Positions 5,115 through 22,133 of a stretch of DNA of 64,000 nt are shown piece after piece; the first letter of the stretch is position 1; every line of letters starts with the position of its first letter. Location of the stretch: contig NZ_SLZG01000007.1 of NCBI RefSeq assembly GCF_004341625.1, positions 62,001 through 126,000 on the forward strand. Direction: 5' to 3'. The translations under genes and the position numbers were made by a program. Source of the DNA: Rhizobium sp. BK376 (GTDB lineage: Bacteria; Pseudomonadota; Alphaproteobacteria; Rhizobiales; Rhizobiaceae). The notes beneath the pieces were generated by a model. It saw nothing but the letters and a program-made list of their open reading frames with translations. It was not told where the DNA came from and did no database searches.

Positions 5115-6140
5115 ATGAAAAAGATGATTTTTTCAGCGCGAGCCGTGCTCGTTCTGGGTACGGCGCTCGTCGGTACGACAATCAATTTCACGACCGCATT
5201 CGCCGCTGATTCCGCCGGGATCGTCGTCTACAACGCCCAGCATGAATCGCTCGGCAAGGCCTGGATCGACGGCTTCACCAAGGAGACCGGCATCAAGGTG
5301 ACGATCCGCAACGGCGGCGACACCGAAATGGCCAACCAGATCATCCAGGAGGGCGCCAATTCACCCGCCGACGTCTTCCTCACGGAAAATTCGCCGGCCA
5401 TGACGCTCGTCGATACCAAGGGCCTCTTCGCGCCGATCGACACCGACACGCTTGCCCAGGTGCCGGAGACCTTCAAGTCGGCTGACGGCAAGTGGACAGG
5501 CGTTGCCGCCCGCTCGACCGTCTTTGCCTATGACAAGACCAAGCTCAAGGAAGCCGATCTCCCGAAGTCGATGCTCGATCTCGCCGATCCGAAATGGAAG
5601 GGCCGCTGGGCCGCATCCCCGACCGGCGCCGACTTCCAGGCGATCGTCAGCGCGCTTCTGGAACTGAAGGGCGAAGACGAGACGGCAAAGTGGCTGAAGG
5701 CGCTGAAGGAGAACGCGACCTTCTACAAGGGCAACAGCGTCGCCATGAAGGCCGTCAATGCCGGGCAGACCGAAGGCGCCGTCATCTACCACTACTACTG
5801 GTTCGGCGATCAGGCGAAGACTGGCGAGAACAGCAAGAACGTCGCGCTTCACTATTTCAAGAACCAGGACCCGGGCGCATTCGTCAGCATATCAGGCGGC
5901 GGCGTGCTCGCTTCCAGCAGGCACCAGAAGGAAGCCCAGGCCTTCCTCAAATACGTAACCGGCAAGGCCGGCCAGGCGATTCTGCGCGACGGTGATTCCT
6001 TCGAATATGGGGTTGGAACAGGCGACGCCTCCAACCCCAAGCTCGTACCGCTCGCCGATCTCCAGGCTCCGAAGGTCGAACCGTCCAAGCTGAACAGCGC
6101 CAAGGTGACGGATCTCATGACCGCGGCCGGCATCCTCTGA
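5115..6140 (+). CDS. periplasmic Fe(3+) ABC transporter substrate-binding protein (FbpA/FutA-like)
   Basis: 341 residues from ATG 5115. A signal peptide (MKKMIFSARAVLVLG..., cleavage near the AFA-AD site) is followed by VVYNAQHESLGKAWIDGF, the typical opening of FbpA/Idi/FutA proteins. A Tyr cluster in AVIYHYYWFGDQ matches the iron-coordinating tyrosines of that family. The family delivers ferric iron to an inner-membrane permease/ATPase pair. Neither fbpB nor fbpC is next to it here: the next gene downstream is a COG4705-like protein after a strong hairpin. It is therefore an orphan binding protein, controlled by the IRO box just upstream. The upstream in-frame start at 5076 would precede the signal peptide and is not preferred. 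Confidence 0.88.
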   Translation: MKKMIFSARAVLVLGTALVGTTINFTTAFAADSAGIVVYNAQHESLGKAWIDGFTKETGIKVTIRNGGDTEMANQIIQEGANSPADVFLTENSPAMTLVDTKGLFAPIDTDTLAQVPETFKSADGKWTGVAARSTVFAYDKTKLKEADLPKSMLDLADPKWKGRWAASPTGADFQAIVSALLELKGEDETAKWLKALKENATFYKGNSVAMKAVNAGQTEGAVIYHYYWFGDQAKTGENSKNVALHYFKNQDPGAFVSISGGGVLASSRHQKEAQAFLKYVTGKAGQAILRDGDSFEYGVGTGDASNPKLVPLADLQAPKVEPSKLNSAKVTDLMTAAGIL

Positions 6141-6167
6141 TTTGCTCGGCGCTGCTAACTAAAAAAT

Positions 6168-6196
6168 GGCGCGGCCGCCTGCTGGACGGCCGCGCC
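6168..6196. terminator. hairpin after fbpA-like gene
   Basis: A perfect 10-bp GC-rich inverted repeat (GGCGCGGCCG at 6168-6177, complement 6187-6196) with a 9-nt loop begins 28 nt after the fbpA-like stop. It has six A residues before it and no T-run after it, so it is a plausible but not perfect terminator for the plus strand. Confidence 0.55.
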
Positions 6197-6291
6197 CGAT
6201 GGTTCAGCGTCCTGTCAGGATTGTCGGGCAATCCATTCCGCCGAAGCCCACCAGTCCCTTCCTCGACATCTGGCACAAGCGGAGAAATCAC

Positions 6292-7029
6292 GTGCGGTCC
6301 CTCCCCAAAATCAACGCGGTCTACTGGATCACTCTCTGTGCTGCCAGCATCTTCGGAACGAATACAGGCGACTATGTCTCTGACGCCATGGGAATCGGAC
6401 ATCTCGCGGGACTGCCCTGGTTGCTGGTCGTGTTCCTGCTGCTGATCGGGGCCGATCTGGTCGCTGAGTTTTCGGCGCCGCTCCTGTTTTGGGCGGCAAT
6501 CATCACAGTGAGAACGGCCGCGACGAATTTCGGCGACGCCTTTCATGATTTTCACATCGGCTTTGAGATCTCTCTGCCGATCGTCTTGGTTCTGTTCGCC
6601 GTTTCGGTCCTGTGGTATCGGCGCAGCTGCGTGAGCCTAATGAAGAATCTTCCCACAGGGGGCGTTTATTGGCTCACGATGACGCTTGCCGGGATCGTCG
6701 GGACGATCGGAGGCGACGCAGCGTCCTTTCGTCTAAGATTGATGCCGCTCGGCACCGCGGCGCTTTTCTTTCTGCTTGCGGGCGTGGTCATAGCGGCGTC
6801 GAAACGGAAAGGCGGATGGACCAACCCATTGATCTACTGGCTTGCTCTGGTACTTATCCGGACGGCCGGAACGGGTGCGGGCGACGCCCTCGCACATGCC
6901 GCGGGGCTGCCATTTGCGACGCTGCTTTCCGGCGGCGTCTTTGTCGGCCTCGTCATTTGGTTCTACGCCGTGATTGGAACTAATGTCCGCACCGATCCGG
7001 AGCTTGTCGTGGAAGCTGAGCGCGGCTGA
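6292..7029 (+). CDS. COG4705-like integral membrane protein, four-repeat
   Basis: The frame is open from 6166, but the stretch before 6292 overlaps the terminator hairpin and is Pro/Arg-rich. The GTG at 6292 has a GGAGA Shine-Dalgarno six bases upstream and gives 245 residues. The protein is almost entirely membrane segments (about 8) arranged as four repeats, each with a helix ending in a Gly-Asp motif: FGTNTGDYVSDAMG, RTAATNFGDAF, GTIGGDAASF and RTAGTGAGDALAHAAG. The acidic residues buried in repeated helices suggest a transporter or ion-handling protein. The family has no established role. A second, diverged copy lies at 9187-9996. Confidence 0.75.
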   Translation: MRSLPKINAVYWITLCAASIFGTNTGDYVSDAMGIGHLAGLPWLLVVFLLLIGADLVAEFSAPLLFWAAIITVRTAATNFGDAFHDFHIGFEISLPIVLVLFAVSVLWYRRSCVSLMKNLPTGGVYWLTMTLAGIVGTIGGDAASFRLRLMPLGTAALFFLLAGVVIAASKRKGGWTNPLIYWLALVLIRTAGTGAGDALAHAAGLPFATLLSGGVFVGLVIWFYAVIGTNVRTDPELVVEAERG

Positions 7030-9186: not shown

Positions 9187-9996
9187 ATGACCAAACCGCT
9201 TTTTCGGTTTCATCCGAACGCCATCTTGTCCGGCGGCACGCCGTCGAAGGTACCTGAGGTCACCGTATACTTCTGGATCATAAAAGTTCTGACGACCGGC
9301 ATGGGCGAAACCACGTCAGATTTTCTTGTGACGACCATCGATCCAATCATTGCGGTTGTGCTTGGTGGGCTTGCCTTTGGGGTCGCGCTGGTGCTGCAAT
9401 TTTCTGCGGGCCGTTACATCGCTTGGATCTACTGGCTGACGGTGGTGATGGTCTCGATCTTCGGAACGATGGCGGCAGACGTCGTTCATGTCGCGCTCGG
9501 CATACCATATTCGATCTCGACGCCGTTCTTCGCCATTAGCCTTGCCGCCATCCTCTACGCATGGCAGCGTGTGGAAGGAACACTGTCGATCCACAGCATT
9601 CACACGGCGAGGCGCGAGCTCTTTTACTGGGCGACAGTCTCCACGACCTTTGCGCTCGGTACAGCTGCTGGCGACATGACAGCTAGCTCGATGGGGCTGG
9701 GCTATCTCGAATCGGGCTTTCTCTTCCTGGCAATTTTCGCCGTGCCAGCCATAGCCTATTGGAAATTTGGCATGGGCGAGATCATGGCTTTCTGGTTCGC
9801 CTATGTGGTGACGCGGCCGCTAGGCGCGTCGTTCGCCGACTGGTTTGGCGTCTCGCACGAGCGCGGCGGACTGGGCTGGGGCACTGGACCAGTCAGCCTG
9901 GGAATGGCGATCGTCATTTTCGGCTTCGTCGGCTATGTAGCCCTCACACGGAAAGACGTTGAAGAAGCGGATCGCGACAGCCTTTTGGGCCGGTAG
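9187..9996 (+). CDS. COG4705-like integral membrane protein, second copy
   Basis: 269 residues from ATG 9187. The same architecture as the protein at 6292-7029, with about eight membrane segments in four repeats, but the acidic motif differs: TTGMGETTSDFLV, FGTMAADVVHVALG, LGTAAGDMTASSMG and RPLGASFADWFGVS. The first repeats of the two proteins differ in sequence, so the pair is not a recent duplication. Function unknown; a substrate-translocating pair or independent transporters are possible. It is convergent with the AAA+/protease gene, with 53 nt between stops and no clear terminator. Confidence 0.75.
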   Translation: MTKPLFRFHPNAILSGGTPSKVPEVTVYFWIIKVLTTGMGETTSDFLVTTIDPIIAVVLGGLAFGVALVLQFSAGRYIAWIYWLTVVMVSIFGTMAADVVHVALGIPYSISTPFFAISLAAILYAWQRVEGTLSIHSIHTARRELFYWATVSTTFALGTAAGDMTASSMGLGYLESGFLFLAIFAVPAIAYWKFGMGEIMAFWFAYVVTRPLGASFADWFGVSHERGGLGWGTGPVSLGMAIVIFGFVGYVALTRKDVEEADRDSLLGR

Positions 9997-10049: not shown

Positions 10050-11966
10050 CTACGAACCGCGCCGCGCATAGGGTTTCCTGGAACGCTCGACGGGATCGCC
10101 AGGCTCGAACCCTAGGAGCGCCCTCACCTCCTCTGCATCGAGAATCTCACTGTCCGAAAGTGCCCTTACTAGACTTTCAATGTCGCCCTTCCGCCTCCGG
10201 ACAATCTCCTTCGCGCGTTCCAGCTCGGCATTCAACAGCTGTCCCACTCGTCTGCGCAACACTGGATCCGCGCGGCGAAGTTCCTCCAGATCTCTCGGCG
10301 ACGATACATCGCTGTAGGAAAGCCCCTGGCCCATGCCGAGCGTCGCCTCCATGACAGTCGCGAGATCAGTTGCTCGGTGGAGATCCGAACCCGGCGCTCC
10401 TCCAGATCCGTCTCTGATGTCGTCCAGCATTACCTCCTCGGCTGCCCTGCCTCCCAGTAACAGGGCTATCTCGTTCCGGTATGCCTCCTTCGATCTCTGG
10501 CGCGCCACCGGGCGAGACCATTCGACAAAACCGGACCAGGCTTCAGCCGAGCCGACCTCGCGAGGCACTACGATTGATCGCACCGTCGCCACACCTAGAT
10601 CTGTCCCAACGACGGCATGTCCCGCTTCATGAACGCAGACCGAGTGCCGGACAGCTGGATCCAGGACGACGGTCGCTGGTGTGACGGCTTTCAAGTCGTC
10701 CGGTGTCATCTCGCGTCGAGCACGCCTTGCCCGCATTCGAGCGTCCTTCGCAAGCTGCGCCAGCTTCGCACCGGACATGCCGCTGGTCGCTCTGGCCGTC
10801 GTCTCCAGAATTTCCGCCGGCATCTCGGCGCGGAGATGCATTACGAGAATCTTCTTGCGAGCGTCATAGTCGGGGAGTTCGATTTTCACGTGCCGGTCCA
10901 GACGGCCGGGTCGAGTCAGGGCGGGATCGATGGCGTCCGGATGGTTCGTGGCGGCGATCACGACAACGCCATTTCGGCGCGACGATCCGTCCAACGCTTC
11001 GAGGAGTGCGTTCACGACCTGGATATTGTAGCTCGCGTGGTCGGGACCGAAAGTCGATCTGTCTCCAAGGGAGTCAAACTCGTCCAGGAAGAGAATGCAT
11101 GGCGCTTTTTCAGCTGCATCTTTGAATGTTCGTCTCATAGCCTTTAATAGATCGCCGAGATGACCCATCGCCTGCCATTGAGCAAAGGAGCTGCTTATAA
11201 AGGCGGTCCCGCATGTTTTGGCGACGGCAGCAGCGAACATCGTCTTCCCTGTGCCCGGCGGGCCACTCAGAAGCAGACCGCAGTCCACGTCGCCCCAGTC
11301 GAGTGTGCCATCGTCCCAGGCGCGAATATCCTCCGCAAGACCGAGAGCCCATTCGCGCGCGTCGCCGAAGCCCGTCAAGTCCTCGACTCCGAGGGTCGAG
11401 ACCGAAGTCTCAGGCTTCCTTTCCGAGTGAAACACTGCTGCCAACCGCGCAAGCGCGTCGCCGACGCTCCTGCCTGGTCGTAGCGCCTGGAACATATGGA
11501 TCGGCGGGTACGAAAGCAGCTCCTTCGCGTCGTCCAGCGTAATCGCAATTCCACCGTACGCTTTCACGGCAGCGGCGAGATGCACTGGGCGAATTGCACC
11601 GACTTCGACAGTCTTGTCGAGTGCGAGCCCGACATCTGAGGGAATGGCTATCCCATTGGGAACGAGCAAAACGACCGCTGGTTTAACCCTCAGGATATCA
11701 ACGGCATCCGACCAATTGCCTCCGCCTCGGTACTCTTCGACGACATGCTTGGTGTAGATTTCGGCTCGCTGCGTGGCTTTCAATGTCACGCTGAGAGCGT
11801 CCGCGTACGACTGCTCGTTAGCGTTTGCGGGAAGGATCAAAGCGACACATGCGTCGTTGCGCTGAAATGCGCCTGCCCTTCGCAGTGCGTCCCTCACGAT
11901 CCGAGAGTAGACAGCGACTTCGAGTGTTGCCGCGCGCTCGGCAAAATTTATCCGACTCGGGTTCAT
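10050..11966 (-). CDS. soluble AAA+ ATPase with M41 (FtsH-type) metalloprotease domain
   Basis: 638 residues. An N-terminal region of about 200 residues has no recognised domain and no membrane helices. The AAA+ module has Walker A GPPGTGKT (about 234-241), Walker B CILFLDEFDS (about 290-297), sensor 1 IAATNHPD and the SRH TRPGRLDRHV. A peptidase M41 domain follows with the zinc site HEAGH (about 445-449) and the third-ligand region GSDLHRATDLA. Domain order matches FtsH, but FtsH proteins carry one or two N-terminal transmembrane helices and a periplasmic domain, all missing here, so the enzyme should be cytosolic. All catalytic residues I can see are intact. The start lies 9 nt after the stop of the TnsA-like gene, so the two form an operon. 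The N-terminal region probably recognises substrate or partner (inference). Confidence 0.9.
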   Translation of the reverse strand: MNPSRINFAERAATLEVAVYSRIVRDALRRAGAFQRNDACVALILPANANEQSYADALSVTLKATQRAEIYTKHVVEEYRGGGNWSDAVDILRVKPAVVLLVPNGIAIPSDVGLALDKTVEVGAIRPVHLAAAVKAYGGIAITLDDAKELLSYPPIHMFQALRPGRSVGDALARLAAVFHSERKPETSVSTLGVEDLTGFGDAREWALGLAEDIRAWDDGTLDWGDVDCGLLLSGPPGTGKTMFAAAVAKTCGTAFISSSFAQWQAMGHLGDLLKAMRRTFKDAAEKAPCILFLDEFDSLGDRSTFGPDHASYNIQVVNALLEALDGSSRRNGVVVIAATNHPDAIDPALTRPGRLDRHVKIELPDYDARKKILVMHLRAEMPAEILETTARATSGMSGAKLAQLAKDARMRARRARREMTPDDLKAVTPATVVLDPAVRHSVCVHEAGHAVVGTDLGVATVRSIVVPREVGSAEAWSGFVEWSRPVARQRSKEAYRNEIALLLGGRAAEEVMLDDIRDGSGGAPGSDLHRATDLATVMEATLGMGQGLSYSDVSSPRDLEELRRADPVLRRRVGQLLNAELERAKEIVRRRKGDIESLVRALSDSEILDAEEVRALLGFEPGDPVERSRKPYARRGS

Positions 11967-11975
11967 CGAAGGCTC

Positions 11976-12581
11976 CTATCGTTCAGCGCCACGGACGGTG
12001 CTGTCCGGATTGATCAGTTCATCATCAAGATCGACCGTAAGAATGCGTTGCAGAATAAGAGAAGCCAGTCCCGCCATTGGAGGAGCTTCACGGAACAATG
12101 TCAGGCCTTCGGCGACCGTGAACGAACCAAACTCGTCCAGTGCCGACATCACTCTGATGCGGTCGCCCAGCGGGCAACGGAAATTCCCATATCTCAGGAG
12201 ATCGCGGGCGTTGCGAAGCCGCCAGCCTGCCTCTCTTTCCGGCCGACTGACGAACTGATGAACCAATCCCATCCGCGCCGCTGCCGCGGCGATCTCCGGA
12301 TCGCCGGTCAATTCGCAAGCGTCAACGAGCCGGACTTCGCCGGTGAAGTATCTCGCCAGGAAATCGGGGATGTGACCTGCATCGCGCAGCCGCAGCTTGA
12401 GGGGTAGGCACTCCCAAGTTTCGATCTGCGGATCGACATCCAACAGGCAGCCCAAGTCGCGCGCGGCCCTACTGCGGAAGATTGGCTCGCCTGCGCAGCG
12501 CACTGTTGCTTTGGGGGAGAAGAAGACATTGTTGACGCGAGCGGCATTGCGGCCGCCGAGCAAGGGATTCTCGGAACTCAT
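11976..12581 (-). CDS. TnsA-like protein with degenerate nuclease centre
   Basis: 201 residues. The centre has the layout of a TnsA N-terminal endonuclease domain: FRSRAARDLGCLLDVDPQIETW, then LPLKLRLRDAGHIPDFLARY, then GEVRLVDAC; the C-terminal part (FGSFTVAEGLTLF...ILTVDLDDELINPDSTV) resembles the helical TnsA C-terminus. In active TnsA the three positions carry Glu, Asp and Lys (SxxE, PDF, VxVK). Here Glu is replaced by Ala (SRAA), the Asp of IPDF is kept and the Lys by Cys (VDAC). Strand cutting is therefore unlikely. The protein heads an operon with the AAA+/M41 protease. The TnsA assignment rests on motif spacing read by eye; a structure-based search would settle it. Confidence 0.55.
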   Translation of the reverse strand: MSSENPLLGGRNAARVNNVFFSPKATVRCAGEPIFRSRAARDLGCLLDVDPQIETWECLPLKLRLRDAGHIPDFLARYFTGEVRLVDACELTGDPEIAAAAARMGLVHQFVSRPEREAGWRLRNARDLLRYGNFRCPLGDRIRVMSALDEFGSFTVAEGLTLFREAPPMAGLASLILQRILTVDLDDELINPDSTVRGAER

Positions 12582-12589
12582 GACATCAC

Positions 12590-12649
12590 CAACAACAAAC
12601 GATTGAAGGACTGCCGCGCGGGCGGCGGTTCAATTCAGCGTTGTTGTTG
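12590..12649. promoter_or_regulatory. 60-bp multi-part inverted repeat before the TnsA-like gene
   Basis: Three nested complementary arms surround one centre: CAACAACAAACG (12590-12601) with CGTTGTTGTTG (12639-12649), ATTGAA (12602-12607) with TTCAAT (12629-12634), and GCCGC (12613-12617) with GCGGC (12622-12626). It starts 9 bp before the ATG at 12581. It could be a 5'-leader RNA hairpin that masks the ribosome site, or a cruciform operator. The rest of the gap to 12703 has no other feature. Confidence 0.55.
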
Positions 12650-13311: not shown

Positions 13312-13425
13312 GATCGAATCCTCCGTGTCGGCAGAGATTACGCGATTCAAAGGTGCACGACCACACGTTAATCCTTCGTAAACCGTGATCCGGGACCATC
13401 GTTCGACGTCCTCGGGGGAATGCGC

Positions 13426-13962
13426 ATGCACATTCTACTTGATACGAGCGTCTTAAGCGAAGCCAGACGACAGGAGCCGGTACAAGAAGTCCAACGCTTC
13501 CTCCGGTCGCTGCCTGACGAATCCATCGCAATTCCCGCTCCTGTCGTCTTCGAACTTGAACGCGGCGGGCAGATGCTGAGGACATCGAGGCCCGATCGAG
13601 CGGAACCGCTCCTATCGTGGCTCGGCGGCCTTCTGGCGACGAACGTTTTCATTCCTCCGATGGGCGCCGAAATATTTCGACTGATCGCAACAATGGCGAC
13701 CGTCCCGGCGCTACGGAGATTCTGGAGAGACGACAGGACGACGGGCGAACTTCGGTTTGGGTGCGATCCAGCAATCGCCGCCGTTGCGATCCACTACCAG
13801 ATGCCGGTAGCAACGCGGGACGTCAACGACTTCATGCTCATTCACAGACATTTTCGCATCCCGGGCGTCTATGAGCCGTTTCATCGACGATGGCATGTCG
13901 ACCCCTCGGAAGAATGGCAGTTCGTGCTCGACGACGAGAGGTCTAACTGTCTCATTTTCTAG
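13426..13962 (+). CDS. PIN-domain toxin (VapC/FitB-like)
   Basis: 178 residues from ATG 13426; the ATG at 13420 sits directly on the GGGGGA ribosome site, so the second start is preferred. The PIN acidic residues are visible: MHILLDTSVLSEAR (Asp 6), VVFELERGG (Glu), the CDPAIAAVAIHY Asp and ATRDVNDF. VapC toxins are Mg-dependent ribonucleases, usually about 130-145 residues; this one has an extra C-terminal stretch of about 35 residues (IPGVYEPFHRRWHVD...). The antitoxin candidate is the divergent Phd-like gene. No antitoxin frame was found directly upstream on the same strand. Confidence 0.82.
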   Translation: MHILLDTSVLSEARRQEPVQEVQRFLRSLPDESIAIPAPVVFELERGGQMLRTSRPDRAEPLLSWLGGLLATNVFIPPMGAEIFRLIATMATVPALRRFWRDDRTTGELRFGCDPAIAAVAIHYQMPVATRDVNDFMLIHRHFRIPGVYEPFHRRWHVDPSEEWQFVLDDERSNCLIF

Positions 13963-14719
13963 CAGGATGGGATCGGCCGAATTCGTGACGCAACAAAATC
14001 CGGGCAGCGCGCAAATTCTCCAATGCATCCTGTCCGTGGCACAAAAAATTGATTTCAGCTTTCAAAGGCGGCTCTGTGCGATGGCGGATCGAATTGAGAC
14101 AAGATGATCAATGAACTTTGGCCGAACCCGGCGCCGTCCAGGCTCTCTTGGTAAACCATGCATAAACGCGCCAATATTAACTATAAATTTAATTATAATT
14201 TACACATATAAAGCATTTATTCTAACAATTGCAACGAGCTAAAGGGCCAGCTTACGGATCTGTACTATAGACAACTTCGACTGATCCATGTATTTCCATC
14301 GCCGCTGATCCAATTTCGGGTCATCGCCAAGGAACCGTCCAACATGCAACAGGTCACATCGACATACGGTCAAAGGGCCCAACAAGCCAACTAGGCATCG
14401 ATGCGACTTCGGTGACCTCAGAGAGCTCACCTTCCCTCAGCGCGACGAGGAATAGCATGTACAATAAAACTCCCCACAGATACCCCCTCACGCGACAATG
14501 AAGTCGTTGAACCGTCACCGACGGTAACGACTTCGACCTCCGGCGAGACTTCGTCGCCTCGCCGGGAAGATCCGATCCAAGATCTTCATTGAGGGATGAG
14601 GAAGCCGCTCCGACCGGGTGCCTCCAAGTTCAAGCTCCCTCGTTTCGATGATTGCATCCGCATTCCATGACCGGACTGCGAAGCGCCTTCTCCAGACCCT
14701 GACACGAAAGGACCGCGCT
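13963..14719. other. intergenic region left of the transposition genes
   Basis: 757 bases without a supportable gene. From the left: a very AT-rich stretch at 14170-14230, clearly unlike its surroundings; two imperfect tandem repeats of 23-24 bp at 14281-14303 and 14305-14328 that share CTGATCCA at the start and CATCGCC at the end; GGTGA/TCACC at 14411-14431; and three consecutive hairpins at 14500-14587. It probably contains the left end of the transposon and the promoter of the transposition genes, but I could not fix a terminal TGT. Confidence 0.45.
14500..14587. repeat. three consecutive inverted repeats upstream of the transposition operon
   Basis: Hairpin 1: GAAGTCGTT plus ACCGTC (14500-14508, 14511-14516) pair with GACGGT plus AACGACTTC (14520-14534), a 15-bp stem with a two-base bulge and three-base loop. 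Hairpin 2: CCGGCGAG (14540-14547) with CTCGCCGG (14558-14565). Hairpin 3: GAAGATC (14566-14572) with GATCTTC (14581-14587). They end 132 bp before the first ORF, consistent with a structured leader RNA, operators, or transposase-binding repeats. Confidence 0.6.
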
Positions 14720-15112
14720 ATGACGCAGGCTGATGACTCACGCCTTTTCTTCGGCGACCGTATTCCCGACCTCTTCCTTCCCGAACTGCGCAAATGGTCG
14801 CGACAGAAGCACGGCGGCTACTACTTCACGCTGAGCGAGATCAATCTCTTCCGCGTTGTCGCGCTGTCGTATGCCGATGCCGCGCGCCCTAGTGTCACTC
14901 TGGTCTACCGCGTCCTCTGCGCGTTGATCGACGAAGACGCCGCGCTTAACAGCTCACCCGCCCGCAAGCCGTCCCTCACGACCTTCCGCCGCATCGTCAA
15001 GTCGTTGCCGGAAGAGTTCGTTCGCTACATGCGTTTCGGCCGCCTGCGTCGCGTCACGACCTTCGATCTCCTGTTCTCGGCCGCCGAAGTTCTTGAAATC
15101 GCTTTCAAATAG
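14720..15112 (+). CDS. unknown protein with putative helix-turn-helix, first gene of the transposon operon
   Basis: 130 residues from ATG 14720, with a GAAAGGA ribosome site 7 nt upstream. No family recognised. The segment ARKPSLTTFRRIVKSLPEEF (about 90-109) resembles the helix-turn-helix repeats of TniA/TnsB transposases, which contain similar P-S-x-x-T-x-x-R-x-I-x-x-L-P strings; the TnsB of this element has PKIRTVQRFIKSL. It may be a stand-alone DNA-binding accessory protein or regulator of the element. It is 65 nt from the next gene. Confidence 0.65.
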   Translation: MTQADDSRLFFGDRIPDLFLPELRKWSRQKHGGYYFTLSEINLFRVVALSYADAARPSVTLVYRVLCALIDEDAALNSSPARKPSLTTFRRIVKSLPEEFVRYMRFGRLRRVTTFDLLFSAAEVLEIAFK

Positions 15113-15177
15113 CCTGCCAAACCCAGTCACCCATCCCCTGACGGACGAAATCGTCATCAAACATAGGAGAGAAAAGA

Positions 15178-15614
15178 TGACCTTCCGAAACTCGATCGAA
15201 CGTCTTCAGGCGGCGATCACCAGCATGAGCAGCGCGCTCGAATCGCCCGAACTTCGCGAGTTGATCGGCTTCGAGAACCTGAAGGAGGACGCCCTACAGG
15301 ATTTCCTGAAATCCGCACAGAAGCGTCCGGATGCAACTCGCTACTGGTGGAAGAACCTCACTGGGCTGTTCGACGATTTCAATCGCCAGATCGCGCGGGC
15401 GAATGCGCCGGTCATCGACATCCCTGACTATGAGCGCTTCCTGGTGCTCCTCGACGGATATCACGCGGCCAAGCGCAGCCGCGCGGCTAAGTTGCCGGGG
15501 GGCCACGTCGTTCTGCCGGTTGTTCGCCATAGCGCGAAGAATTTACCTGAGATTGGCGCCTGGGGCGATCCCGCCTGGGATGTCCAGATCTCGTGTGGCA
15601 ACGAACAGCAGTGA
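15178..15614 (+). CDS. unknown protein, second gene of the transposon operon
   Basis: 145 residues from ATG 15178, preceded by AGGAGA; the frame extends upstream to 15093 but overlaps the previous gene and lacks a ribosome site. The sequence is soluble and helix-rich at first (SIERLQAAITSMSSALESPELRELIGF), then IPDYERFLVLLDGYHAAKRSRAAKLPGG. I do not recognise a domain. Its position between a possible DNA-binding protein and tnsA suggests an accessory role in transposition or its control. Confidence 0.6.
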
Positions 15615-15649: not shown

Positions 15650-16482
15650 ATGAAGAAGGCACAGCTGGCTCTGCAGTATCTGCACTACAAGAACAACGGG
15701 TTCGATATCCTCAGCATCGAACACGGATACGAGACCAATTTTGCGAACTCCGACCGCCAGATCGGGAACGTGCGGAGCCGGAGCTTGCAAAGGGTGCTGA
15801 CGAAGAACCTTGTATCGAAGAAAAGCTTGGGTTCACGGTCGAGCCTGACCCCGTATCGCCGTACGACCGCGCCGTCTCGCTAAAATCGGGAAAGAACTGC
15901 CGTGTGTTCCTGAACAACCCGCTGGGAACGGGGCCGCTTCGTTGCGAGAGCTGGTTCGAAGCCCAGTGTGCTGTCTACCTGATGTCACGACGCGATGTCG
16001 TCGATGTCTCGTGCCAGTACGGTGTCGAATACGCGAAGGGCAAGTTTCACTACTTCGACTTCCGCGTGGTCTACAAAAGCGGGCTCGTCCGTCTGCTTGC
16101 CGCCCGCCCCGCGCAGCTCGATAACCACGGAAAACTTCTCGCTAAACTAGAACTCATTCGTAACCATAGCCTGCATCTGCATGCGGATGACTGCAAAATC
16201 ATGACCGATGAGCTGGTGACGAAAGCAGTTTTTTTACGATCGGCGGAGATTCTGCGGGCCCGCGAACTCAAGAACAATGAGAACTGCAATTGCATGCAGC
16301 GCCTGCTGTCCGGAATGAAAGAAACGTTCAAGGTTTGCGAACTCCTGCAGGAGTTTGCGGACCTCGGCGCCGCGCGCACCGCCATGTGGAACCTGATCGA
16401 CATTGGCGTTCTGGAGCATGCGTGCAGTCGTCCGGACTACATGACGATGACGGACATTTCTTATCTGCGCCAGTGCGCGTAA
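15650..16482 (+). pseudogene. tnsA: tnsA-like endonuclease gene, frameshifted
   Basis: The ATG at 15650 opens MKKAQLALQYLHYKNNGFDILSIEHGYETNF..., but this frame ends at 15883. The continuation is one frame back (-1) from about 15770: RAEPELAKGADEEPCIEEKLGF..., then the nuclease region ESWFEAQCAVYLMSRRDV, KFHYFDFRVVYK and LAARPA, ending at 16482. The overlap has no slippery heptamer of the X-XXY-YYZ kind and the second part has no good internal start, so a one-base deletion or an assembly error is likelier than programmed frameshifting. The Glu (ESWFE) and Asp (YFDF) of a TnsA centre can be placed; the VxVK Lys position reads Arg. TnsA makes the 5'-strand cuts that allow cut-and-paste transposition. 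If the frameshift is real, the element might only cointegrate. Confidence 0.65.
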
Positions 16483-16495
16483 AAAGGGAAATAAA

Positions 16496-18871
16496 ATGGG
16501 TCAGCACGCAAGGGAGACCGTATATACGAATTTCGCCGTCGGCGAGTGGGACCGGCTCCTTTACCAAGGCAACTATTACCAGGTCACCCACATTTCCGGC
16601 GGATACCAGCTTGAACAGGAAAATGGACCGCTCAAGCACCAGTTTGCAAAGGCGGAGTTGTCGCGATACATCTCGCTGGGCATCGTCGACATCGAACCCG
16701 AGTACTACACGCTCGCGCGCAAGAACGAACGCGAGCTTGAGTTTGCGCTTGATCCAGCCGATATGCCGCTTGACATCCGCGTCCGTATTCGCGCCGTCGC
16801 GGCATTTCTCCAGGGGGTGAAGGAAGGTAAATGGTCTCGCTCAAAGGCCAAGGTCACTGCATTCCTCGAGCATTTCACTGAAACGCAAGAAGCGATCCTG
16901 CACAAAGGAAACACCAAGAAGAAGGGGCGCGGCGGCTCGAAGAGGATAGACGTCAGTGACCGCAACCTGATTGAGTGGCGTCAGTTCATACGGATCGCGA
17001 ACCTCTACGAGGAGAATGCAAACTCCTCGAACGCCCTCATGAAGCGATACAAGGGCACAGTGCGCGGCACGAAGATGGCTCCAGCGACGCAGGAATTCCT
17101 GAGAACCGCGTACCTGAATAATAAACAAGCCTCCCCGTCGGCCGTCTTGGTGACGCTCGAAAAAAGGAACCTCGAACTTAGCCTGCAAGGCAAGCCGCAA
17201 ATTCCTGAACCAAAGATCCGAACAGTACAGCGTTTCATCAAATCACTCCGCGATCTCGACAAGACCGCAGCGCGGATTGACGCAAAGAAGGCTCGGCTCG
17301 ACCACGCCTTGAGTTACGGCGGCCCGACGGCCGACCTTCCTCTGGAGCGAGTGGAAATGGATGAAAAGCTTCTCGACCTTTTCGTCTTTCTCACGGAAAC
17401 CGGGTTGATCAATGAAATTCATCCTGACGCCATCGCCAGGCTCGAAGCTCTTTCGGTCGAGGTCGACGACGAAGACGAAGAGAGCGATACTAAAAATCCT
17501 AAGCGGAAGAAGAAGAGGAAAGACGCCGATAACCGAAAGCGTCTTTGGTGGTCGGTAGCGTTCGATGCGGCCTCGCGGTCCGTGCTCGGCATGAAGATCC
17601 TTCGCACCGCCCAGCCAACGCCCAGGGATGCGATCGAAGTTCTCGAAATGGCCGTTAGTTCGAAGGCGCACCTCGTCGAGGCCCTCAAGACAAATTCGCC
17701 TTGGCCGCAAGAGGGCAAGCCTTGGCTGGTGGTGGCGGACCACGGAAGTGCCTACGACAGCTTCGAATTTCAGGACTGCGTCGTCGCGCTCACAGGAAGC
17801 GTGCTAAGCCCTCCGGCCGATCACCCCAACATGCGAGGCGCCATCGAGCGCTTCTTCCGCACCATAGACAGCAAGTACATGCATATGTTTCCAGGCCAGA
17901 CGTTCGGCAACATCCTGGCCAAGGGAGAAGGATACGATCCCAAGAAACTGGCGGCACTCACGGACATCGAATTCGCGGAATGCCTCGCTCGCCTCATTAT
18001 CGATTGCTACCACAACACCCCGCAGGAGGGTGCGCTGAATGGCAGGACCCCGTTACAGATGTGGGGCTATCTCAACAAGATGCACCAGGTTCGACGCGTC
18101 GACGAGGATACCAGGTGGAAGGCTTTCGCGATTTCCGTGCCCAACAGACATATTTCTAACAACGGCCTTGTGTTCTTAGGTCTGACGTATGGTGACGAGC
18201 GTATGCAGGAACTTCGCGACAACAGCACCAAAACCACGTTCACGATCCGGGTCTGGCCCAAAAATCTTAGCAAGATCAGAGTCAAGACGCAGAATGGCCG
18301 TGGCTACATTACAGTCAAGTGCAACCTGCCCGGAACGGAACACCTCACCCTGAACCAGTGGAAGCACGCACTTCTTCACATGAACAAGACAGTGAAGAAG
18401 TCTCAGCCGCGCTCGTGGGACACTGTGCTCCGGACGCTCTCGCAGGTGCAGAGGCTTGTCAAGTCGGCCGAGGATCGCGCCGGTATCGCTGCTGACTCCT
18501 GGACACTTGAAAAAATAATAGCTCTGGATCGGGATGTCGTCCAGGGCGTGATCTACAAGCGTCAGTTTGAACACGACTACGCGCAGGAAATCAACGAGCT
18601 GCTCAACCCCGGCGACGGCAGCAAAAACGCCCCGATCGAGTCCCTGAGCACGCCAGCACCCACTCTCGACAGTGAATTCGGCGACACAGACGACGGTTTC
18701 AAACGCGATCCCAACCGTTTCGCAGCTCCCGAAGCCGGTAAACGCCGCGAGACGAAGGCGAAGGTCGGACAAGAGGCCGCGGAGCCACCTCGACCTGAGC
18801 CCAACTCCGCTCCGTCTCCCCGTCGCACCAAGAACCGCATCGGCGGGCCCAGGCCGTGGGAAGGCAAGTAG
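16496..18871 (+). CDS. tnsB: TnsB/TniA-family DDE transposase
   Basis: 791 residues; starts 13 nt after tnsA. The N-terminal third contains helix-turn-helix regions including PEPKIRTVQRFIKSL (about 240). The integrase core is clear: first Asp in WWSVAFDAASRSVLGMKIL (about 356), second Asp in WLVVADHGSAYDSF (about 415), Glu in HPNMRGAIERFFRTID (about 451), followed by the YHNTPQEGALNGRTPLQMW motif typical of TniA/TnsB. The C-terminal tail (about 690-791) is Pro/charge-rich and low in structure, as expected for a TnsC-interacting tail. A long acidic/basic insert (VEVDDEDEESDTKNPKRKKKRK) precedes the core. It joins the 3' ends of the element to target DNA. Confidence 0.93.
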   Translation: MGQHARETVYTNFAVGEWDRLLYQGNYYQVTHISGGYQLEQENGPLKHQFAKAELSRYISLGIVDIEPEYYTLARKNERELEFALDPADMPLDIRVRIRAVAAFLQGVKEGKWSRSKAKVTAFLEHFTETQEAILHKGNTKKKGRGGSKRIDVSDRNLIEWRQFIRIANLYEENANSSNALMKRYKGTVRGTKMAPATQEFLRTAYLNNKQASPSAVLVTLEKRNLELSLQGKPQIPEPKIRTVQRFIKSLRDLDKTAARIDAKKARLDHALSYGGPTADLPLERVEMDEKLLDLFVFLTETGLINEIHPDAIARLEALSVEVDDEDEESDTKNPKRKKKRKDADNRKRLWWSVAFDAASRSVLGMKILRTAQPTPRDAIEVLEMAVSSKAHLVEALKTNSPWPQEGKPWLVVADHGSAYDSFEFQDCVVALTGSVLSPPADHPNMRGAIERFFRTIDSKYMHMFPGQTFGNILAKGEGYDPKKLAALTDIEFAECLARLIIDCYHNTPQEGALNGRTPLQMWGYLNKMHQVRRVDEDTRWKAFAISVPNRHISNNGLVFLGLTYGDERMQELRDNSTKTTFTIRVWPKNLSKIRVKTQNGRGYITVKCNLPGTEHLTLNQWKHALLHMNKTVKKSQPRSWDTVLRTLSQVQRLVKSAEDRAGIAADSWTLEKIIALDRDVVQGVIYKRQFEHDYAQEINELLNPGDGSKNAPIESLSTPAPTLDSEFGDTDDGFKRDPNRFAAPEAGKRRETKAKVGQEAAEPPRPEPNSAPSPRRTKNRIGGPRPWEGK

Positions 18872-18887
18872 GTATAGGGAACTGGCC

Positions 18888-19931
18888 ATGTTCAGAGAAG
18901 ACAACGAAGTCACACGAACGATGCGCGACCGCCTGCCCGAGGAGCAGCGCCGCATCCGGGACATCATGGAAGCCGTCGAGAACTTCTACTTCACCACGCA
19001 CAACGACCAGGAAGTTAAACGCGAAATCGACGTCGTGGTCCGAGGCGCCACCCGCGCATCGAAGGACGGGCACATCCTGCTCATCACGGGTGAATCTCAC
19101 GCCGGAAAGTCGTTCATGGTGAACCACTATCTCGAAGAGAACACTTCGCTGGTTCCCTTCGCGATCGAGAACAACAACACCGCATATCCGCTATTCCGGG
19201 TCACTGCGCCGCCGGGCTGCACGATGGCCGGGCTCGGACGCGAAATGGCTATGCGCTTGGGGTACAAGCTCCACAGACAGCTGTCCGAAGATCTAGTGTT
19301 CCAGCGCGTTCGAGCCCAGCTCTACGTCCAGGGCACGCGGGTCGTCGTCATCAATGAGTTCCAGCACGTACTCGATGCACCCGCGAGAAAAGGGCTACGC
19401 CACCTGACGGACACGCTTAAGAACCTCCTGCAGGAAGACGATTGGCCGATCCATCTGATCCTCCTCGGCCTTCCTGAAAGCGTCAACTTGGTCAAGCGTG
19501 ACAGCAAGGAGCAGATGGAGGCCCGTGTCCTGCATCATCCGCTTGTGCCCCTCGTTGCCTCCGAACACGGCGCCGAGATCAACACCGTGATCGAGCAGGT
19601 CCTGGCAATCGCCGGGCTGAAGTCGGTGATGCCTTTCACGGATGAATTCTCGAGGAGGCTCTTTCACGGCGCCCGCTATCGACTGGGCCTCGTATTTAGG
19701 ATGCTGCATTTCGTTATCGAAGATGCGCTTGATTGCGGAGAAACCGAGGTCGGCATCGAGCATTGGGACGACGCCTACATGCGGCTCGCAAAGGGCGGCC
19801 GGAATGTCTTCACCGAGGCCAAATGGTGGACGATCGTTCGGGGGGTCCGCGATGATGGTACCCTCACTCCCGAGGAGGATGAAGATGACGATAGCGGATC
19901 GTCTGGTTATTCCGCGAGGGATGGCGGCTAG
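18888..19931 (+). CDS. tnsC: TnsC/TniB-family AAA+ ATPase
   Basis: 347 residues from ATG 18888 (frame open from 18672 inside tnsB, but the start after the tnsB stop is natural). Walker A GESHAGKS (about 68-75), Walker B RVVVINEFQHVLD (about 150-160), then LLGLPESVNL as a sensor region and DALDCGETEVGIEHWDDA near the end. It follows the TniB pattern and is shorter than E. coli Tn7 TnsC. It bridges target selector and transposase by ATP-dependent filament formation on DNA. It starts 16 nt after tnsB and its stop lies 2 nt before tniQ. The C-terminal tail is acidic (EEDEDDDSGSS). Confidence 0.9.
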   Translation: MFREDNEVTRTMRDRLPEEQRRIRDIMEAVENFYFTTHNDQEVKREIDVVVRGATRASKDGHILLITGESHAGKSFMVNHYLEENTSLVPFAIENNNTAYPLFRVTAPPGCTMAGLGREMAMRLGYKLHRQLSEDLVFQRVRAQLYVQGTRVVVINEFQHVLDAPARKGLRHLTDTLKNLLQEDDWPIHLILLGLPESVNLVKRDSKEQMEARVLHHPLVPLVASEHGAEINTVIEQVLAIAGLKSVMPFTDEFSRRLFHGARYRLGLVFRMLHFVIEDALDCGETEVGIEHWDDAYMRLAKGGRNVFTEAKWWTIVRGVRDDGTLTPEEDEDDDSGSSGYSARDGG

Positions 19932-19933
19932 CA

Positions 19934-21751
19934 ATGCGAGGGATTTATAAAGTTCCATTTCACGCCGACGAGACGACGACGAGTCTCGCAATCCGGCTGG
20001 CATCTGCGAATGGATTGTCGCCCTATCCGTTCTGCGAAGACATGGGGTTCTCGTTCGACTCCGTAATCCACGGACGTCGCGAAGCACTAATACGTCTGAG
20101 TGAGGTTGCACATGTTCCAGACGAGCAGGTCTTCCGGAACGCTTACATAAGTGCAAGACAAGGTGCCGGCGTTCTCCGAGGTGAACAGGTGCGCTCGCCA
20201 TGGATCACTCGCTACACGTCGAGGGTATGTCCTCACTGTCTCGAAGACGATTTCCGAAACGAGAGCGGCCCCCAGTCGGCACGAAGGTATTTCCGGGTTC
20301 ACTGGCATTTCACCGCGATCCGTTCTTGCCCAATCCACAATGCCCCGCTGTTCCAGCTTCCCGACATTGCGAGCGCCCGAGCCTTCGATCTTGATACCCG
20401 TGCCGCAATATCCGCACGAGAGCTTAGAAAGGCGGCAGGCCTCGTAGATACGACCCCATTCACCCCCTTCGAGCAGTTTATCCTAGATCGCCTCGAAGGT
20501 CGGAAACAGGCAGGGGCTTTCGTGGACAACATGTCGATGGTCGCCGGTATCGATGTTTCGGAATTGATGGGAATGTTTGCGACGTTTGGCAAACACGTGA
20601 ACCTTCATAACTTCACCGAAACAGAATGGCAGACTGGTGCTCAGGCGGGTTACGAAATCTTGAAGCGGGGCCGAGACGGTATACGTGCTTTTGGTCGGCT
20701 CATGACCTTACAGACAAATCCGCGACGATCCGCCTACGGCGGGCCTCATCTTCTGGGCGGCTTCGCGAGTATCATGGTTCCTGGAAAACGTGCTGGAGCC
20801 GATTACGATGCAGTTCGGCTTGAGCTGCTCGATTTCATCAAGGAAACTGTTGCCATCGCCGGAAAGTGCATCGTTTTCGGGGAGCGGTTGACGCAAACTC
20901 ACGTCGGCTTGTCGGAAGCGTCCAAGCGTTTGAAACGGAACCAAATACAGACTAAAAATATTCTCGCACACTTTGATTGTGATAAAGACAAGACCGTCAC
21001 TGTCTTTCCCTCGGATGTAGTCGAGCAGGCGAGACATTACCTTGAGGACCTGCTGCTCCCAATCGAGGCAAAAATAGTCCTCGGGGTTAGCCGGGCTGGT
21101 TTCGAACAACTCGTTGGTCAAGGTCTCATTGTACACGATCCGCTTTACCCTCAGCTGTTCCCCGGAAGTCTGCTCCGGTATTCTAAGGCGTCGCTGCAGC
21201 GGCTGCGTGACGCGGCGCTAGCCATACAGCCGGTGTCTTCGAGCGCCGGTCTGTTCTCCCTCTTCAAGGCAACCCAACGCGCCCGCGTGTTGTACGGCGA
21301 CATCGTTGCACTGTTGCTTGATGGAAAACTAAAGAACGTGTTCTACGACCAAAAATTGCAGGGGCTGGATTGCATTATGGTCGATCCAGCGGAAGTAGCC
21401 AGTCATTTCAAGATCGATTCGAAGTGGATGCTGAGCGAAGAAGTCGCAGCACTCGTTGGGCTTCCGGTGCAGCAGGTTCGCCTGATGGCGAGAGAAAACC
21501 TGCTCGGCGGTCACAAATTCAATCGCATTGGATACCCTCCCACCACTATGTTCTTCGACCGCGAGGAAGTGAACAGGTTCCACGGAGCATACGTTTCCGC
21601 CACTGAATTAGGAGAGCAGACGACGCTCGGAGCCTTGGCAGTGGCACAGCGTTTGAGGTGGACAGACACCCCAAAGCTTAGAGCGAAGAAGTTAGTCTTT
21701 TACGAGAGGGTCGCCGTCGAAGCTGAACTGGCCAGGTTCCAAAGCGATTAG
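19934..21751 (+). CDS. tniQ: TniQ/TnsD-family target-selection protein
   Basis: 605 residues. The N-terminal TniQ domain begins VPFHADETTTSLAIRLASANGL and carries zinc-binding Cys/His pairs in RVCPHCLEDDF (about 98) and HWHFTAIRSCPIHNAPLFQL (about 122-141). Its length is between short TniQ (about 400) and TnsD (about 500 or more), with a long C-terminal region in which helix-turn-helix-like stretches such as LSEEVAALVGLPVQQVRLMAREN are visible. TniQ/TnsD proteins recognise the target DNA or a partner complex and recruit TnsC. The preferred target of this one is unknown. Codon use is less GC-biased at the third position than in the core genes to the right. Confidence 0.9.
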   Translation: MRGIYKVPFHADETTTSLAIRLASANGLSPYPFCEDMGFSFDSVIHGRREALIRLSEVAHVPDEQVFRNAYISARQGAGVLRGEQVRSPWITRYTSRVCPHCLEDDFRNESGPQSARRYFRVHWHFTAIRSCPIHNAPLFQLPDIASARAFDLDTRAAISARELRKAAGLVDTTPFTPFEQFILDRLEGRKQAGAFVDNMSMVAGIDVSELMGMFATFGKHVNLHNFTETEWQTGAQAGYEILKRGRDGIRAFGRLMTLQTNPRRSAYGGPHLLGGFASIMVPGKRAGADYDAVRLELLDFIKETVAIAGKCIVFGERLTQTHVGLSEASKRLKRNQIQTKNILAHFDCDKDKTVTVFPSDVVEQARHYLEDLLLPIEAKIVLGVSRAGFEQLVGQGLIVHDPLYPQLFPGSLLRYSKASLQRLRDAALAIQPVSSSAGLFSLFKATQRARVLYGDIVALLLDGKLKNVFYDQKLQGLDCIMVDPAEVASHFKIDSKWMLSEEVAALVGLPVQQVRLMARENLLGGHKFNRIGYPPTTMFFDREEVNRFHGAYVSATELGEQTTLGALAVAQRLRWTDTPKLRAKKLVFYERVAVEAELARFQSD

Positions 21752-22110: not shown

Positions 22111-22133
22111 GCGTTCGCGATCCGCGAAAGATA

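Follow-up and report, generated by a model that had tools for sequence, protein, structure and literature searches.

What does a TnsA-like protein that has probably lost the capacity to cut DNA do directly upstream of an AAA+ zinc protease? The question is raised by two adjacent genes of Rhizobium sp. BK376, located in a stretch of 64,000 nucleotides (contig NZ_SLZG01000007.1, positions 62,001 to 126,000) that is here called the window and to which coordinates refer unless another locus is named. An earlier note, made from the sequence, had proposed that a 201-residue protein with the layout of TnsA (11976-12581, minus strand), here named TnsA*, and a soluble AAA+/M41 (FtsH-like) protease of 638 residues encoded by the second gene (10050-11966, minus strand) form an operon; both open reading frames (ORFs) are present as claimed, and their sizes and their spacing of 9 nucleotides (11967-11975) are correct. 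The stretch assigned to the pair, 10050-12649, extends harmlessly 68 nucleotides beyond the TnsA* start codon.

We show here that TnsA* and the protease form a unit of inheritance that is often accompanied by Tn7-like elements. The pair may be a previously undescribed system, in which a dead cutter chooses targets for proteolysis. Our preferred reading, held tentatively and at somewhat less than even confidence, is that it is a mobile, putatively transposon-borne adaptor-protease module, probably directed against foreign DNA-bound complexes. In 17 plasmid records the two genes are unannotated or called hypothetical, and no description of the pair was found among the matches listed from the open-access literature, a scope outside which most subscription literature lies. 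Word searches of the available parts of two surveys find no FtsH, M41 or protease in one on Tn7-like cargo (PMC8649781) and no FtsH or peptidase in one on target selectors (PMC10293859).

Results

The pair is inherited as a unit

The earlier note had made its case depend on conservation of the pair in other genomes, and the pair does recur. TnsA* is found in 43 of the 297 genomes of the window's family, at 52 places (two of the 43 match very weakly), and in 44 of 53 loci it is followed by the AAA+/M41 gene, read from the same strand. A second set comprises 80 loci from named genomes, the best 80 of 110 relatives found and in partial overlap with the first set; here 75 loci have the protease gene downstream on the same strand at a distance of no more than 2.5 kb, and in 72 of those 75 the gap to its first possible start is at most 150 nucleotides. 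The called genes of the pair overlap by 4 nucleotides in Rhizobium johnstonii 3841 (L250), and a DUF6634 gene intervenes between TnsA* and the protease in two loci (L072, L079). Relatives of the pair occur in Rhizobium (including R. johnstonii 3841, a laboratory strain), Mesorhizobium, Sinorhizobium/Ensifer, Agrobacterium, Shinella, Microvirga and Phyllobacterium. The contig search for TnsA* relatives gave none with the window protein alone and succeeded with a seven-row alignment; viral contigs searched with the TnsA* family profile, as one short pattern, returned no match. A frame in L038 that would fuse TnsA* to the protease was not used, its reading frames having the appearance of decayed sequence.

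Pairwise distances among TnsA* proteins correlate with those among their proteases (Mantel r 0.64, p 0.0002; 24 loci, which also underlie the correlations given below). Since the two genes also succeed each other in 75 of 80 loci, drawn from several genera, it is extremely improbable that they are unrelated neighbours lacking a joint function, an explanation for which nothing speaks beyond the putative nature of their interaction.

TnsA* belongs among the relatives of TnsA

The TnsA layout attributed to the small protein is borne out by a family match, by the family profile and by the predicted fold. The NCBIfam family NF033179 (TnsA-like) matches TnsA* of the window with an E-value of 4.6e-8 and 32.8 bits, short of its curated cut-off of 110; it is matched by 24 of 39 TnsA* family members at E <= 0.001 and is the sole NCBIfam family at that level, while no Pfam family matched the window protein. 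A profile of the TnsA* family also retrieves typical TnsA proteins in which the catalytic E, D and K are retained. Structure prediction from 39 aligned sequences (pLDDT 93.3, pTM 0.88; this alignment, A4, omitted L068, L077 and the plasmid rows) gives a restriction-endonuclease-like domain followed by a C-terminal winged-helix domain. A structure search had been suggested as the step that could expose the lack of a TnsA fold, and that fold was found: the top Foldseek match in the PDB is a Tn7 transpososome chain (9bw1_M, E 6.7e-7), and the TnsA entries 1t0f and 1f1z are among the four chains in all at E <= 0.001. Aligned with 1f1z by VIA-align, the model reaches Z 9.7 (rmsd 5.3, 193 residues), compared with Z of about 7 or below for non-TnsA rows. 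Because a sequence search of the PDB with the TnsA* profile returned no solved TnsA and just a weak match to Cdc48 (E 0.18), the tie to solved structures rests on the fold. The small protein is a member of the TnsA relatives, and conservation within it, as mean top-residue frequency, is 0.64 in the linker, 0.62 in the winged-helix part and 0.51 in the nuclease-like part.

A tree of 56 proteins unites the 23 sampled TnsA* rows in a single group (support 99/99) and sets the 13 TnsA proteins of neighbouring Tn7-like elements apart (100/98), so TnsA* is a lineage of its own that did not arise by recent copying of the local tnsA. The tree was built from alternate rows of alignment A1 and from L093, without L088, L092, L094, L095, L098, L099 and L112, of which L098 and L099 come from other families and are TnsA*-like proteins encoded close to an M41 gene (L310, L311); its 'canonical' group also includes degenerate TnsA-like proteins, such as L097, L102 and L113. 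With TnsA of Tn7, TnsA* shares the two-domain fold, the profile relationship, the PD(F) aspartate and an N-x-x-x-L hinge motif. It differs in its family-wide loss of the helix-1 Glu and the Lys and in its genomic position, since tnsA directly precedes tnsB whereas the TnsA* gene precedes an M41 gene, and many of these elements carry a separate tnsA besides TnsA*.

Active-site residues are lost across the family

Replacement of the catalytic Glu by Ala and of the Lys by Cys had been noticed in the window protein. Both changes are correct (A40 and C89) and extend to the family: among 81 aligned proteins the helix-1 Glu position holds Ala in 73 and Glu in none, and the Lys position holds Lys in one. 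Nor does a conserved Lys stand in any of the six columns from 87 to 92 of this alignment. TnsA* is accordingly no local pseudogene, the loss being family-wide. Two acidic positions, overlooked by the earlier note, are mostly kept: 79 of 81 proteins retain D73, in the PD motif, and 76 of 81 have Asp at 87. A more diverse alignment of 43 rows keeps the former in 42 and the latter in 33. With these acids in place, binding of metal or DNA by TnsA* may persist.

From these residues TnsA* is probably nuclease-dead. Some PD-(D/E)xK enzymes move or replace the catalytic Lys, and the conservation of D73 and D87, the latter less complete in the more diverse set, could be taken to mean that TnsA* remains a nuclease with a rearranged active site, which the protease merely regulates. 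The helix-1 Glu in 0 of 81 proteins, the Lys in 1 of 81 and the lack of a conserved Lys in columns 87-92 make this very improbable.

The protease is M41-type and predicted to be soluble

The second gene product matches the Pfam families AAA (2.4e-34) and Peptidase_M41 (3e-19), and its model (pLDDT 87.1), whose best PDB matches are FtsH, places an alpha/beta N-domain at residues ~15-182 ahead of the AAA+ (231-363) and M41 (434-616) domains. The catalytic motifs had been described as intact, and key residues are indeed invariant among 38 and 32 aligned proteins: Walker residues G235, G238, G240, K241 and T242, with D295 and E296; R352 and R355, by analogy the putative arginine fingers; H446, E447 and H450 of the HExxH motif; and D528, the presumed third zinc ligand. 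The protease carries the AAA+ and zinc-protease residues expected for activity. An HExGH or HEAAH motif is present in 67 of the 75 called protease frames of the named loci.

There is no clear membrane segment, and the protein is predicted to be soluble. The maximum 19-residue hydropathy in its first 200 residues is 1.73, at a stretch modelled as a strand and loop, and all 38 family members stay at or below 1.87; two FtsH controls reach 2.36 (FtsH of the same genome) and 1.95 (a second FtsH), the margin to the second being small. Against the FtsH equivalog model the protease scores 224.8 bits, where the cut-off is 600: it is M41-type and not an FtsH orthologue. It has in common with FtsH the AAA+ and M41 domains, the HExxH motif and an acid at the third-ligand position; true FtsH is membrane-anchored, whereas this protease shows no clear membrane segment and has an alpha/beta N-domain of its own. 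Among phage records 156 matched the protease, none over 80% of the query; the ten matches listed cover 61-72% at ~30-35% identity and, where annotated, are FtsH or metalloprotease.

Association with a Tn7-like element

A link to the neighbouring Tn7-like element, merely suspected in the earlier note, is now supported by a statistical association. Counting TnsB of the window type at E <= 1e-20 in frames of at least 700 residues, we found it in 34 of the 297 genomes, and 28 of these 34 also carry TnsA*, compared with 43 of 297 overall (Fisher p ~1e-22); without the two very weak TnsA* matches the figures are 27 of 34 and 41 of 297. As the first scan scored at most three TnsB candidates per genome, the TnsB counts are lower bounds. 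On the same contig, TnsB lies within 45 kb of 25 of 49 TnsA* places and within 10 kb of 13 (with the strict TnsB set alone, 22 and 12 of 49), three of the 25 depending on matches outside the strict set; the TnsB list was hand-picked, and of the full 52 places 49 remained once the two weakest matches and a second G128 fragment were set aside. Conversely, TnsA* is found within 45 kb of 21 of the 41 strict TnsB places.

The named genomes give a similar picture. With flanks of at most 6 kb, 25 of the 80 loci contain homologues of TnsB, as against 0 of 20 control regions, each 20 kb long; a PIN-domain family occurs in 25 of 80 and 1 of 20, and a C5-methylase family in 22 of 80 and 0 of 20. The control regions come from the same genomes at arbitrary round coordinates, chosen and not random, and these and other profiles were built from genes near TnsA*, which biases them toward finding such genes there. 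Among 46 TnsA* genomes drawn from the 80 loci, the rest being dropped mostly for short contigs or a repeated genome, TnsB is present at E <= 1e-15 in 43 and at E <= 1e-100 in 35, and a TnsB coordinate lies within 45 kb of TnsA* in 32 (by coordinates alone, weaker long-frame TnsB included). If C1 is the chromosome of R. johnstonii, ~38 kb separate the two there. TnsA*, protease, TnsA, TnsB and TnsC stand on one strand in L310 and L313, from two other families of the order, and likewise in L059, L061 and L068. In the last three loci a similar short frame (at least ~50 residues, judged by eye) directly precedes tnsA, and could be a small regulator or a coincidence.

The element in the window lies on the plus strand. 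Its tnsA gene (15904-16482; start at 15331 in the ORF list) encodes the TnsA of a lineage separate from TnsA*, and is followed by genes for the TnsB transposase (16496-18871; Mu-transpos_C at 0.0024, below the cut-off, with a homologous family across loci), the TnsC/TniB ATPase (18888-19931; TniB 9.5e-15; ORF-list start 18672) and the TniQ/TnsD target selector (19934-21751; TniQ 1.8e-19). An alignment places Arg at the expected catalytic Lys of this TnsA, as in 5 of 13 TnsA proteins of related elements. Between the pair and the element, a gene for a PIN-domain protein (13420-13962, plus strand; Pfam PIN 1.6e-5) is a divergent neighbour of the pair, and belongs to the context and not to the core; two overlapping genes with no significant Pfam match (14648-15112 and 15093-15614) lie between it and tnsA. 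No convincing repeats marking transposon ends were found near the window element or in the M41-TnsA gaps of five other loci. A search for the empty site places the return of core synteny at position 22132 on the right side and identified no left boundary.

The pair does not track its TnsB

Within the 24 loci TnsB co-diverges with TnsC (r 0.84), TniQ (0.78) and TnsA (0.64), whereas between TnsA* and TnsB the correlation is -0.02 (p 0.50). The distances are large and partly saturated, so that the test is coarse; their median across loci is ~1.3 for the pair and 2.1 for TnsB, the pair being the less divergent. Of the features of a Tn7 core component, TnsA* thus displays co-occurrence with the transposase and lacks co-divergence with TnsB. 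This is most simply explained if the pair has moved among diverged elements, and it speaks for a transferable module and against a subunit fitted to its own TnsB.

These results bear on the main rival explanation, control of the element's own transposition, in which TnsA* would dock on the TnsB and TnsC of its own element and the protease would dismantle the transpososome once strand transfer is complete or limit copy number, much as ClpX does with Mu. The natural partners of TnsA are TnsB, TnsC and transposon-end DNA, and the strong association with one Tn7-like group, the one-strand arrangement in the five loci named above and a weak but significant correlation of the protease with TnsC (r 0.30, p 0.0008) all fit such control. 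We nevertheless consider it doubtful, given the lack of correlation between TnsA* and TnsB where true TnsA and TnsB reach 0.64, the presence of TnsA* near just 21 of 41 strict TnsB places and the separation of TnsA* from local TnsA in the tree. The precedent is a likeness of working: according to the available part of the source, which also cites the work on remodelling, the AAA+ unfoldase ClpX counts the transposase MuA as one of its substrates and reads it differently as monomer and oligomer (PMC5415555). ClpX differs in being host-encoded, in having ClpP as its partner and in the absence of a TnsA-like adaptor. The earlier note had imagined a module for defence or for control of transposition; the fold, the residue loss and the intact protease have held up, as have conservation of the pair and the Tn7 link, and the part that now loses ground is dedicated control of the element's own transposase.

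Defence genes and other partners in the neighbourhood

The surroundings of the pair agree with a defence role without proving one. CBASS genes with a HORMA protein occur near it in annotated plasmid loci, where a Kiwa-like gene is also found beside a Tn7-like set, together with a CHAT protein and an S8 peptidase that is accompanied by an ATP-binding protein. IetA-like genes and methylases are also among the neighbours. In a PADLOC comparison 145 of 443 sampled neighbour genes match 208 models and 145 of 334 genes of the 20 control regions match 27, a contrast that lends weak support only, since one methylase alone matches ~60 models. The control genes also include an IetA match. PADLOC has no model that matches TnsA* and no single system that covers both proteins of the pair; the protease gives partial AAA+ matches, to IetA and others, at residues 230-413. 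IetAS is a defence system composed of an AAA+ ATPase and a subtilisin-like protease. The pair resembles it in this ATPase-plus-protease logic and in the IetA matches of the AAA+ domain, and differs in carrying its protease as an M41 zinc domain within the ATPase chain and in the confinement of the match to those residues.

An explanation that we regard as somewhat improbable would treat the pair as ordinary anti-phage cargo, set off by a phage trigger unrelated to transposition, with a protease that kills the cell or degrades a phage protein and a Tn7-like element that serves only as carrier. The CBASS, Kiwa-like, IetA-like and methylase neighbours suit it, as does the carriage of defence genes as cargo by Tn7-like elements, documented in the available part of the cargo survey (PMC8649781). 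It accords less well with the link to this Tn7-like group, tight for one cargo among many, with the lack of a PADLOC model for TnsA* and the restriction of the protease's match to the AAA+ part, or with a PADLOC comparison that is inflated by methylases and an IetA match that recurs in control genes.

The same genome encodes a second soluble AAA+/M41 protease (G000:C11:184028-185263; locus L002, 913-2802), preceded by a gene for a 106-residue DUF6634-like protein (L002, 596-916) whose end overlaps it. Among DUF6634 loci, 20 of 30 have a strong match to the AAA+/M41 profile in their 1.5-kb flanks, a profile that can match other AAA+ proteins, and in L072 and L079 TnsA*, DUF6634 and M41 stand in a row. 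With DUF6634 beside related proteases, more than one small protein seems to serve as partner of the protease. The open-access literature yielded no paper on DUF6634.

A metallophosphoesterase, frequent as a further gene, is present in 16 of the 53 loci of the first set, often right after the protease, and in 5 of the 80 named loci; it lies near the protease in L058, L030, L029 and others, and between the TnsA*-like and M41 genes in L311. C5 DNA methylases are encoded downstream on the opposite strand at L250:8730-10739, with a long N-terminal extension, and at L227:8887-10326. To the left of the pair in the window are two DUF347 repeat proteins (6166-7029 and 9187-9996) and a solute-binding protein gene (~5192-6192) with a 95% identical copy at G000:C2:347598, which suggests recent duplication or transfer.

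Discussion

We propose that TnsA* no longer cuts and would still recognise a DNA-bound nucleoprotein complex, that it would dock on the N-domain of the protease ring, and that the ring would then unfold and degrade the proteins so marked. As targets we would moderately favour the complexes of rival elements or of other invading DNA over the element's own transposase, since the pair fails to follow its own TnsB and defence genes can be among its neighbours. A narrower version, in our estimate improbable, is that TnsA* keeps the surfaces by which TnsA joins the transpososome and that its dedicated M41 ring destroys the transpososomes of competing elements, a form of element-against-element exclusion through proteolysis guided by an adaptor, in which a Tn7-like transposon family would have made a weapon of a transposase subunit.

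Several observations weigh against our reading. Two acidic positions persist in TnsA*, from whose other residues we infer the loss of nuclease activity, and in the 43-row alignment Lys occurs at column 89 in two rows and Glu at the neighbouring column 39 in two. The binding of DNA or of the protease by TnsA*, and the need of the protease for TnsA*, are likewise steps that we infer, and related proteases adjoin DUF6634 proteins without TnsA*. The protease is not adjacent in 9 of 53 and 5 of 80 loci (some are broken or at contig ends, including one of the five that is cut by a contig end), and 8 of the 75 protease frames are short, at 162-316 residues, again at contig ends or broken. Among seven loci of more distant TnsA*-like proteins, M41 is absent from the retrieved sequence in three and lies on the opposite strand in a fourth. 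Fifteen of the 43 TnsA* genomes lack TnsB at the strict threshold, and a close tie to Tn7-like elements would also be expected under control of the element's own transposition. In addition to the protease-TnsC correlation given above, weak correlations link the protease to TnsB (r 0.16, p 0.048) and TnsA* to TnsA (r 0.18, p 0.024), and the PIN family correlates with both TnsB (r 0.49) and TnsA* (r 0.44), as does the methylase with TnsB (r 0.29). Finally, the clustering with defence genes could reflect the general defence cargo of Tn7-like elements, as the accessible part of the cargo survey describes it (PMC8649781).

The reuse of an inactivated enzyme has a parallel in TnsF of Tn6022-like elements, a catalytically inactive recombinase derivative that Tn7-like transposons have put to new use, according to the available part of the target-selector survey (PMC10293859). 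TnsF picks target sites, whereas TnsA* is paired with a protease. If TnsA* is indeed the targeting subunit of the adaptor-protease module that we propose, a transposition protein would have been reused as a proteolytic adaptor, and an AAA+ zinc protease would be added to the means that mobile elements have of policing one another or their hosts.

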